From assembly GCA_016841045.1 (NCBI GenBank), contig JAENZX010000010.1, forward strand, positions 1 to 64,000: DNA of 64,000 bases. The letters run 5' to 3'. Position numbers and translations under genes: made by a program. The stretch comes from Thermincola carboxydiphila. Its GTDB lineage: Bacteria; Bacillota; Thermincolia; Thermincolales; UBA2595. This document shows positions 31,895-60,895 of the stretch, piece by piece (within the stretch, counting starts at the first letter, position 1; each line of letters starts with the position of its first letter). The notes beneath the pieces are model-generated. The model had not been told where the DNA came from. It searched no databases and saw nothing but the letters and a program-made list of their open reading frames with translations.

Positions 31895-34800
31895 TTATAG
31901 TATGTTTTTATTAGCTTTTGGCACAAGATAAGGTGGCATTTCCTTTTTGAGTCTCCATATAAAACTCATAGGTTTATTTCCCTTGTGGCTAACATATTCA
32001 CATAATCCCAAAAACTCAAACGGTGCAGTATATCCATTTTCTTTTTTAAATTCCCGTACAAACAAGGCAATTTTATGATTTAGTTTATTATGATGCATGT
32101 ATCGTCTAGCGGTTTCACTATTCTCCGATACCTTACTTTGGGTTTGCCAGTGAAATAGCCACTCGTTAATGGCATAATCATCGTATAACGTTGACGGCGA
32201 AAAATCCTTTTCTGACTTACTTAAAGTAATGAAAAATATATCTAAACTTTTGTCCTTAAAGTACTTTACCCCTTCTCTGAAAGAAGGGCTACTTTTTTCA
32301 TTAAAATACCCTAAAGCCGCCATAACTTGAGAGGAAGAATACTTACTATGGACCCGCAGCGGACAGGGCAACTCTAAATCATTGCCTAATTCAAGCGTTT
32401 CCACCGACCCGTATAGATATTTCAAGATTTCTAAAATCTCCATTTTAAAATCGGGATGCGCTAATATCCTTTTTACTCCGTCTTCTATAGTTCCTGTTCC
32501 CTCTTTTTCGGGATAATTGTTATAGAAACTATAGTAGAACATTGCTAGCATAAGTTTCTCTTCTTCTGTCTTAATTACTCCCCCCTCAATAAACTCAATT
32601 AGAAATTTTAATAGAACAGGTGAATTTAGATGAAATAAATTAGCTAATCTACTGGTTATAAGTTTTTCATCTTCGTAGAAAAAATCCGACTTCAAACCAG
32701 CTTTTACCAATACTCTAGTAAAGCTGCGGTCTCCATTTTTTCCGTAGAAATCATACAAAGATAAGTGATGATGCTGCAACAAAGTCCCTAACGATAACTC
32801 TAGTCCGGTATCTCCTCGAAAATATTTTACTTTAGAGACTAAGTTTCCCAATGTATTCGCACTAGCCTTAATATTCCTTAACACATACTCTTTTGCGCTT
32901 CGTTCTAATTGGATGAAAGACCCTTTAGGCAGATGCAAAAATCCATTTTCGACATAATGACGAACAGAATGCTTAGTCTTACCTATTAAAGCCCTAAACT
33001 TCTCCTCAAAATTATAGTTTTTGTGAGCTTGACCAATAAAATCTAATACCGTCAAGCATTCTTTCCCCTCTGACAACCTTAGTCCTCTCCCTAGTTGCTG
33101 TAAAAAAACTGTTAAACTCTCCGTTGGTCTTAGAAATAGAATTGTATTTACTTCAGGGATATCAACACCTTCGTTGTATATATCTACGACAAATATAAAT
33201 TTTATCTTCCCTGTAACTAATTTGTCCTTAATATCTATTCTTGACTTAGATTTGCTCTCCCCGTGTAAAGCAGCCGAAGGGATCCCCGCTTCATTAAAGA
33301 AATTAGACATATATTTTGCATGTCCAACTGAAACGCAAAAACCCAGTCCCTTGACCTGATCTATATCAGTCACATATTTAAAAATACTATTAACAATCTG
33401 ATTACTTCTAATTTTATTAGAAGTATAAACATTCTCCAGTTCTTTTGTATCGTAACCTTTACGCCCCCATTTAAGGCGTGATAAATCTACATTATCGCTA
33501 ACACAAAAATACTGAAAGGGGGCAAGTAATTTACGATTTATTGCCTCAGTCAGCCGCATTTCTGATGCAATAATATCATCAAAATAATCCAGAATCCTCT
33601 TTTTGTCCATACGTTCAGGAGTTGCTGTTAACCCAAGGAGCAATTTAGGTTTAAACTGACTTAACAGTTTTTGATAAGAATTAGCTGCCGCATGGTGAAA
33701 TTCGTCAACAACAATATAGTCGTAGAAATTACCCAGAATATTATTATATAATTTTTTACTATTAAAACTTTGAATACTAACAAACAAATTAGTAATATCC
33801 GCCGGCAAGTAACTGCCAACAAGTAATTCACCAAAGTTAGGGTCCTTTAAAACAGCCCGAAAGGTGTCCCTGCTTTGTTTTAGTATTTCTTCTCTGTGGG
33901 CAACAAATAACAACCTGGCAGAAGGCATGACTTTCCTGAGTCTTTTAAAATCAAAGGCCGAAATTACTGTTTTACCAACACCTGTCGCAGCAACAACAAG
34001 GTTCTTCATTCGCCCAAAAACATCTCGTTCTACCTGAAGTTTTTCCAGTATTTCTTTTTGGTAATGGTAAGGCTGAACATCTAGAACGAAATTAATATTA
34101 TACTTGGATTCATTATTTTCTTTAGTTAATGCTGCCTTCAAAAGCTGCTTATCTTCTTCCATTCCATAATTAAATATTTTGAATTCATTGTCATTCCAAT
34201 AGCTTTCAAAAGTAGCCTCAAATTTTTTAATTATGTCAAAAGAGTCTTTTTCTGTAACTTTGATGTTCCATTCAAGCCCAGAAGTTAATGCAGGATTTGA
34301 TAAATTAGAGGAACCGATATAAGCGGTACTAAATCCTGTTTCTCTTTTAAACAAGTACGCTTTAGCATGAAGTCGAGTTCGCTCAACATCATAAGATACC
34401 TTAATTTCTGTATTGCAAAGCTGACTTAGTTCTATTATGGCTTTGTAATCTGTAGCTTCCATATAGGAGGTAGTGATCACCCTTAGCTTCCCTCTTTTTT
34501 CTTCAGTGAAGGCTCTTAGCTCGTCAATAATACAACGCAAACCACTCCATTTAATAAATGATACTAACATATCAATGGAGTCTGATGATAAAATTTCTCT
34601 TTTTAATTCTCCCAACATATTCGGCTCATAATTGGAACCGGTAAACAAGGAACTTTGTGAAATGGGCGTAACAGGTCTAACACCCACCTCTTTCTTAATA
34701 CTTCTAATGCTATTAATCCTAGAATAAATAGCCGTTAAAATTTCTCCTTCTTCTGCTATTTTTAAGGTCTGGAATTCCTCCTCATCTAATCTTTCACTTA

Positions 34801-35047
34801 ACGTTTTGATTATTTCATTACAAGTTCTAATCTGATTAATTAAAGCTAAATGATCATCACTTTCATTATCTCTAACATATTTTAAGGCTTTTCTGGCAAC
34901 GTCAGAAATATAGGATGACAATAATTTTCTTGCCTCTTCAACGTCTACTCGTTCCTTTTCGATATCGTAATCCTCAGAATCAAGACTTGTAAGCTGATTT
35001 CTTAACTTCTCATTTATTATTTCTTCATATATACCTAATTTGAGCAT
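31895..35047 (-). CDS. PLD-nuclease/SF2 helicase/DUF3427 protein
   Basis: 1050-residue multidomain protein. An N-terminal helical part (1-130) is followed by a phospholipase D-type nuclease-like domain (about 135-290) with HAK at 227-229 and IGSSNLSNPAL. A superfamily II helicase comes next: Walker A ATGVGKT at 354-360, DEFH box at 448-451, LTATPERM, and QQLGRGLR motif VI. A DUF3427-like C-terminus (about 730-1040) follows. Only one PLD half with HxK is visible, so it may act as a dimer or only bind. Such PLD-helicases are common in defence and mobile islands. GAGGT precedes the ATG. The gene is AT-richer than its surroundings and divergent from fic. Confidence 0.88.
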   Translation of the reverse strand: MLKLGIYEEIINEKLRNQLTSLDSEDYDIEKERVDVEEARKLLSSYISDVARKALKYVRDNESDDHLALINQIRTCNEIIKTLSERLDEEEFQTLKIAEEGEILTAIYSRINSIRSIKKEVGVRPVTPISQSSLFTGSNYEPNMLGELKREILSSDSIDMLVSFIKWSGLRCIIDELRAFTEEKRGKLRVITTSYMEATDYKAIIELSQLCNTEIKVSYDVERTRLHAKAYLFKRETGFSTAYIGSSNLSNPALTSGLEWNIKVTEKDSFDIIKKFEATFESYWNDNEFKIFNYGMEEDKQLLKAALTKENNESKYNINFVLDVQPYHYQKEILEKLQVERDVFGRMKNLVVAATGVGKTVISAFDFKRLRKVMPSARLLFVAHREEILKQSRDTFRAVLKDPNFGELLVGSYLPADITNLFVSIQSFNSKKLYNNILGNFYDYIVVDEFHHAAANSYQKLLSQFKPKLLLGLTATPERMDKKRILDYFDDIIASEMRLTEAINRKLLAPFQYFCVSDNVDLSRLKWGRKGYDTKELENVYTSNKIRSNQIVNSIFKYVTDIDQVKGLGFCVSVGHAKYMSNFFNEAGIPSAALHGESKSKSRIDIKDKLVTGKIKFIFVVDIYNEGVDIPEVNTILFLRPTESLTVFLQQLGRGLRLSEGKECLTVLDFIGQAHKNYNFEEKFRALIGKTKHSVRHYVENGFLHLPKGSFIQLERSAKEYVLRNIKASANTLGNLVSKVKYFRGDTGLELSLGTLLQHHHLSLYDFYGKNGDRSFTRVLVKAGLKSDFFYEDEKLITSRLANLFHLNSPVLLKFLIEFIEGGVIKTEEEKLMLAMFYYSFYNNYPEKEGTGTIEDGVKRILAHPDFKMEILEILKYLYGSVETLELGNDLELPCPLRVHSKYSSSQVMAALGYFNEKSSPSFREGVKYFKDKSLDIFFITLSKSEKDFSPSTLYDDYAINEWLFHWQTQSKVSENSETARRYMHHNKLNHKIALFVREFKKENGYTAPFEFLGLCEYVSHKGNKPMSFIWRLKKEMPPYLVPKANKNIL

Positions 35048-35419
35048 ATCGTTTACCTCACAGATTTACATATGTTTGCAATTTCAACATTATATTTTAG
35101 CTATTTGATAAATTTAATTATTATCCTGCTTTGTTACACTGACCTTTACATGAATATTACCACCTAACAAGCCGAGGTCGCTTATGATACGGTTTACTGT
35201 ATCGGGTCAAACGGTCAGCTTTTGGTCATTTTTTGAACAACAGTGTTACATGAATAGACCAACTAAACCGATTAACAGCAGCGCTTTAAGGTGCCGTTAG
35301 TATTATTATTTTAGTAATAAATTAGTATTTAACTAGTATTGTATTAGTATAATAATAGTAGTAAAATAGTTTTAAATAGGACTTTTTTGGGTTAGAATCC
35401 CATGTAGGAGGTGAATTTG
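35048..35419. promoter_or_regulatory. divergent promoter region between the helicase and fic genes
   Basis: 372 bp without a gene. It contains TTACATGAATA at 35146-35156 and again at 35246-35256, exactly 100 bp apart, an inverted repeat GATAC-8-GTATC at 35186-35203, and the phased 11-bp array at 35311-35376. A -10-like TATAAT lies at 35348-35353 inside the array on the plus strand, without a clear -35. All signals suggest shared control of the two genes, which is inference. Confidence 0.55.
35311..35376 (+). repeat. six direct 11-bp repeats in helical phase upstream of fic
   Basis: Units begin at 35311, 35322, 35333, 35344, 35355 and 35366, each 11 bp with no gap. All carry TAGT at positions 2-5; the consensus is about TTAGTATTAAA. 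A further TTAGTATT lies at 35297, out of register by 3 bp. The array ends 43 bp before the fic GTG start. Confidence 0.85.
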
Positions 35420-51540: not shown

Positions 51541-51564
51541 TTTCCATTCAGCCATCTTTTAGCT

Positions 51565-51592
51565 CACTACCCACTACTCACTACCCACTACA
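51565..51592 (+). repeat. four CACTACY heptamer repeats at the ypeB stop codon
   Basis: CACTACC, CACTACT, CACTACC and CACTACA follow each other without gaps. The ypeB stop codon (51590-51588 on the minus strand) lies in the last unit. The same heptamer forms an eight-unit array at 60840-60895. Confidence 0.85.
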
Positions 51593-60795: not shown

Positions 60796-60839
60796 TTATT
60801 TCAAATCCTGGGTTTGCGAAAGCAAACCTTCTGATTTAT

Positions 60840-60895
60840 CACTACTCACTACCCGCTACTCACTACCCACTACTCACTACTCACCACCCACTATA
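60840..60895 (+). repeat. eight-unit CACTACY heptamer repeat
   Basis: Eight contiguous 7-bp units from 60840 to 60895: mostly CACTACT or CACTACC, with one CGCTACT, one CACCACC and a last CACTATA. Same strand and sequence as the array at 51565-51592. It lies between a hairpin and the L,D-transpeptidase gene. Confidence 0.9.

Follow-up and report, generated by a model that had tools for sequence, protein, structure and literature searches.

A candidate direct-repeat operator in the promoter of a class II fic gene of Thermincola carboxydiphila

To our knowledge, DNA binding is unproven for most Fic proteins that carry a winged helix, and their operators are almost unknown. CccR of Yersinia pseudotuberculosis, a class II Fic protein with a C-terminal helix-turn-helix (HTH), has been demonstrated to repress its own promoter from sites near -35 and -10, the footprint being one inverted repeat, AGATAATCAT-N26-ATGATAATCT, that is bound by a dimer (PMC9755527). 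CbFic2 of Coxiella burnetii (PDB 8cil), a class II Fic protein with a C-terminal winged helix (wHTH), binds DNA, the DNA used being random; contact with DNA stimulates its enzymatic activity, and on dimerisation the enzyme turns to deAMPylation (PMC10628234). For SoFic (SO_4266, PDB 3eqx/3zcn), DNA binding had not been shown as of the same publication (PMC10628234). Among regulators of another kind, PhoP of M. tuberculosis recognises a 7-bp motif with a 4-bp spacer, and three and four units were bound better than two (PMC4832192).

Here we analysed a fic gene preceded by tandem 11-bp repeats in the window, by which we mean the whole 64,000-nucleotide stretch of T. carboxydiphila DNA under study (unlabelled positions refer to it). 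As in CccR, a class II Fic protein with a C-terminal HTH is combined with a site near its own -35 and -10, the position here being computed from sequence; unlike the spaced inverted repeat of CccR, the site in this other Fic subfamily consists of two to six 11-bp direct repeats (up to eight with near-matches) with a TAGT core. The core occurs in one orientation only and does not form an inverted repeat with a long spacer, and the inverted pairs in the array region are imperfect, of the kind that AT-rich sequence yields. CbFic2 shares the class II Fic domain and the C-terminal wHTH but has no known operator, whereas a candidate can be read from the sequence here. The head-to-tail 11-bp arrangement is that of OmpR/PhoB operators, for which PhoP provides the precedent of winged helices in a row; those regulators, however, are response regulators with a receiver domain, while the Fic protein lacks one and carries a DeoR-like winged helix. 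We found no description of a tandem direct-repeat operator for Fic, and no precedent for a head-to-tail mode of DNA binding by Fic, in the open-licence literature. The array and the gene that it precedes are as follows.

35311-35321, forward strand: array unit 1, TTAGTAATAAA
35322-35332, forward strand: array unit 2, TTAGTATTTAA
35333-35343, forward strand: array unit 3, CTAGTATTGTA
35344-35354, forward strand: array unit 4, TTAGTATAATA
35355-35365, forward strand: array unit 5, ATAGTAGTAAA, by the unit profile of 13 loci the nearest to the cross-species consensus
35366-35376, forward strand: array unit 6, ATAGTTTTAAA
35420-36688, forward strand: fic, encoding a class II Fic protein with a C-terminal winged helix, the probable reader of the array

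The preliminary description had reported six gapless 11-bp repeats with TAGT at positions 2-5 and A/T elsewhere, and the six contiguous units at 35311-35376, with cores starting at 35312, 35323, 35334, 35345, 35356 and 35367, confirm its geometry; its wording on composition holds for 39 of the 42 non-core positions, the exceptions being C at position 1 and G at position 9 of unit 3 and G at position 7 of unit 5. The array has a GC content of 13.6%, and its 3' end lies 43 bp upstream of the GTG start of fic. Since B-form DNA has about 10.5 bp per turn, an 11-bp period drifts by about 17 degrees per unit, and the six cores face the same side of the helix approximately rather than exactly, as had first been stated. 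The window contains 4 four-unit matches with at most two mismatches; 0.05 would be expected, and 0 of 100 shuffles gave as many. None of 2000 dinucleotide shuffles of the upstream region contained six in-phase TAGT cores (p<=0.0003 in a separate shuffle test). No two units of the window are identical, yet every core is intact, which argues against fresh slippage. An Rfam scan around the locus gave no score above the gathering threshold, and folding of the DNA between the divergent helicase gene and the array was not significant (z=-0.78).

All 13 distinct full-length fic orthologues, from Bacillota and an Ilyobacter plasmid, carry two to six exact TAGT units with an 11-bp period upstream of the start codon, in loci that are related by descent and thus do not count as independent trials. 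Even TAGT-N7-TAGT was absent near the start of all 41 non-orthologous Fic genes, which were processed identically; an eighth row marked ORTH in that comparison is the second, unrelated Fic of L042. Five of the orthologues have 45-58% protein identity, namely, L038 (= G002/L009), L039, L040, L041 (= G131) and L042, the Ilyobacter plasmid gene, while L051 (G087) was found as an orthologue by profile (E 3.3e-186). Six held-out orthologues (L109, L110 and L112-L115; profile E 2.5e-127 or better) came from two protein searches made after the motif had been defined and were selected by protein alone, and all six have arrays of two to six exact units. Among distances of up to 24 bp between TAGT cores, the 13 upstream regions show peaks at 11 (36) and 22 (22), and the reverse-strand core shows no peak at either distance. 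Across the 13 loci the unit consensus is TAGTAGTAAAW, with the core fixed and the other seven positions variable, which points to selection rather than recent duplication; in the first seven orthologues, the array and the promoter are all that is clearly shared upstream, and the surrounding DNA no longer aligns. The variant unit TAGTTTTAAA, the type of unit 6, is also the last unit in L038 and L042. A broken fic relative (L010/L033, G051:C38; 49-69% identity), truncated N-terminally with its 5' end lost, is without an array.

The comparison of related loci, on which the preliminary description had made its proposal depend, thus favours that proposal, with the array present in 13 of 13 orthologues and in 0 of 41 other Fic genes, and conservation across orthologues contradicts the simple-sequence noise that it had named as the alternative. 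Chance or slippage could draw on the AT-rich DNA, on several identical unit copies in L051, which suggest recent duplication there (this array reaches eight units when CAGT units are counted), and on three three-unit matches away from fic in viral sequences. The occurrence in 13 of 13 orthologues, including 6 of 6 held out, the divergence of the window units around a retained TAGT and the fact that shuffles of each of the 13 upstream regions rarely yield even two units nevertheless make this explanation scarcely credible.

The site appears to be private to fic. A three-unit, 26-bp pattern matched in 4 of 398 Bacillota genomes, each time before fic, and its reversed control matched in none; these four are the genomes among the 398 with a full-length fic orthologue. 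The pattern was built from some of these loci, which makes its sensitivity partly circular but leaves the absence of other sites unaffected. In seven array-bearing genomes or records, a two-unit pattern matched solely before fic, and in the six held-out genomes a looser three-unit pattern matched exactly nowhere but before fic, its one-mismatch matches elsewhere being about as frequent as those of the reversed control. In a large viral collection, whose contigs contained no full-length fic orthologue, the three-unit pattern matched three times, never near fic. In viral DNA, three TAGTATTAAAT-like units upstream of a resolvase-like gene on a 50-kb contig (L086:415-440) are possibly another use of such a repeat. 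We regard it as almost certain that the array is an operator dedicated to fic. Since the two-unit site occurs solely before fic, the regulon seems to consist of a single gene, as would that of an autoregulator, and with such a single target in each genome Fic itself is the simplest candidate for the reader.

The Fic protein contains the inhibitory motif SSVIEG (residues 109-114) N-terminal to the catalytic motif HPFFDGNGRTAR (residues 243-254), i.e., [ST]xxxE[GN] before HPFxxGNGRxxR, which places it in class II, and both motifs are kept in the aligned orthologues. The inhibitory motif thus sits within Fic itself, in contrast to class I FicTA with its separate small antitoxin gene, and no separate open reading frame of at least 60 amino acids lies between the array and fic. 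The C-terminal winged helix claimed earlier is supported by Pfam HTH_DeoR (E=3.2e-05, above cut-off) and by the predicted model, in which a wHTH at about residues 343-402, mostly of high confidence, presents the recognition-helix motif YETARSDL; the model is a monomer of moderate overall confidence (mean pLDDT 75). Its best matches among solved structures are SoFic (3zcn/3eqx) and CbFic2 (8cil). With SoFic and the SoFic defence family it shares the combination of Fic and winged helix, and the PADLOC SoFic model matches it (E=1.5e-50), but identity in the structural alignments is 17-19% and the score of 73.9 bits with the NCBIfam SoFic model NF046030 falls short of the cut-off of 550. The motif [YQ][EQ]TARxDL is found in the recognition helix of 13 of 13 array-bearing proteins and other Fic proteins nearly always differ, an association that is confounded with common descent. 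Directly before the start of a fic relative on a Klebsiella plasmid, whose product has a similar helix, YNTARKDF, lies the perfect inverted repeat AACTCAATTTT-CGTC-AAAATTGAGTT (L043:1863-1888), and Fic proteins of other branches may use palindromes.

The array overlaps the predicted promoter of fic, whose elements are given below.

35339-35344, forward strand: predicted -35 hexamer TTGTAT, inside the array; 8 of 13 orthologous loci share this offset of TTG
35362-35367, forward strand: predicted -10 hexamer TAAAAT, 17 bp after the -35, from the end of unit 5 to the start of unit 6, in the same register in orthologues
35407-35412, forward strand: ribosome-binding site AGGAGG, a good one, preceding the GTG start

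The -10-like TATAAT noted at first is indeed present in the array (35348-35353), but the -10 conserved among orthologues is TAAAAT at 35362-35367, with TTGTAT 17 bp upstream. The arrays of 8 of the 13 loci contain TTGnnn-N17-TAnnnT in one and the same register, in which the TAGT core immediately precedes the -10; TTG at any other offset tested occurred in 1 locus only. By this computed register, the putative operator of these eight loci lies near the -35 and -10 of its own gene, as in CccR. TTGACA-N17-TAGAAT overlaps the array of L042, and TGGACT-N17-TAAAAT of L051 keeps to the shared register; L109 and L110 have their best promoter-like sequence upstream of the array, and L041, with two units only, is without a promoter in the shared register. 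The arrays extend to either side of the predicted -10, and most promoter positions relative to the array would suit repression by occlusion.

The repeat could instead be a part of the promoter itself (a UP-like AT-rich element, curvature or repeated -10 boxes) that needs no repressor, in line with the 13.6% GC, the overlap with -35 and -10 and several -10-like hexamers. Promoters, however, do not need the TAGT that is fixed here at an 11-bp period, the arrays continue on both sides of the predicted -10 or, in L109 and L110, lie downstream of the best promoter-like match, and A-tracts are few, so we consider this very unlikely. Intrinsic curvature, an early suggestion, is likewise unlikely to be the point, with three short A/T tracts in 66 bp and conservation of TAGT rather than of phased A-tracts.

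That the array is read by Fic itself, and that reading it is repressive, is in our view probable. We infer Fic as the binder, cooperative binding and the repressive effect from the observations above, and the earlier idea of a cooperative repressor array, possibly read by the winged helix of Fic, is well supported by the comparison (13/13 against 0/41, with a single-locus site). The array would be a multi-unit head-to-tail operator within the fic promoter, in which (i) the 11 bp of each unit, TAGT and seven AT-rich positions, would serve as the half-site for one C-terminal winged helix; (ii) several Fic protomers would align in one orientation, about one helical turn apart; (iii) the bound row would cover the spacer and -10 of the sigma-A-type promoter TTGTAT-N17-TAAAAT; and (iv) Fic would thereby repress its own gene, the number of units setting affinity or steepness. 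If so, the winged helices of Fic proteins would be able to use tandem direct repeats besides spaced palindromes. As a private operator with a variable number of units can be predicted from the sequence of at least 13 genomes, both the autoregulation of Fic and its coupling to AMPylation are open to direct testing. Quite unlikely, in our estimate, is a further possibility, that Fic protomers polymerise head-to-tail on the array and that the DNA-bound row holds the enzyme in one catalytic state, inactive or deAMPylating, so that the site is both repressor site and activity switch; in that case loss of the row, e.g., on damage or infection, would lift the repression of fic and set active enzyme free at the same time.

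The genes around fic bear on who else might read the array. The divergent neighbour (31895-35047) encodes a PLD-ResIII-DUF3427 protein whose closest PADLOC matches are type IV restriction enzymes (E=2e-222), and together with fic it forms an AT-rich island at about 31-37 kb, with GC of 0.32-0.36 versus 0.41-0.47 around it; this restriction-type gene and fic are probably an imported defence pair. The gene upstream of fic differs among orthologues, being an SNF2 helicase in L038, uncharacterised in L039, an AbiEii toxin in L040, BshC in L041 and a hypothetical gene in L042. The divergent helicase, considered from the start as a possible binder, was rejected as reader, since the upstream neighbour varies wherever checked. 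It is conceivable, though unlikely, that a different regulator, be it a transcription factor or a silencer of the host, reads the array and represses or activates fic: OmpR/PhoB-type regulators typically have tandem 11-bp repeats as their sites (PMC4832192), and host proteins often silence imported genes that are AT-rich, as this island is. On the other hand, no regulator gene recurs beside fic in the loci read, the adjacent gene does not combine a receiver domain with an OmpR-type wHTH (Pfam gives Fic and DeoR-like HTH only), which leaves room for an unlinked regulator, and since a site found only at fic in the scanned genomes is common to Bacillota and a Fusobacteriota plasmid, a conserved single-target host factor would be needed in each host.

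The geometry had also brought iterons to mind, and a partition site or iterons of a replicon or mobile element would account for tandem 11-bp direct repeats and for the one orthologue on a plasmid. In the loci read, the array is not associated with any replication or partition gene; the neighbours here are the helicase/restriction protein and fic, with no adjacent initiator gene and origin, the orthologue contexts vary and the strict linkage is to fic, which leaves this reading with next to no probability. In L040, the fic orthologue is immediately preceded by AbiEi-like and AbiEii genes (L040:2144-3795), and fic of the array-bearing subfamily may favour defence contexts.

Other repeats were seen nearby and elsewhere. 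Between the helicase gene and the array, ACATGAATA followed by an ACCA.CTAA-like sequence occurs in two copies 100 bp apart (35148-35156 and 35248-35256). A search of the same genome for five-unit arrays returned one other, at G000:C14:21805-21863, a TAGTGTTAGTG-type minisatellite unrelated to the fic array; it has an 11-bp period but is of another type, and CACTAC(C)-type minisatellites (reverse complement GTAGTG) are found there and at 51563-51591 and 60839-60893 of the window.
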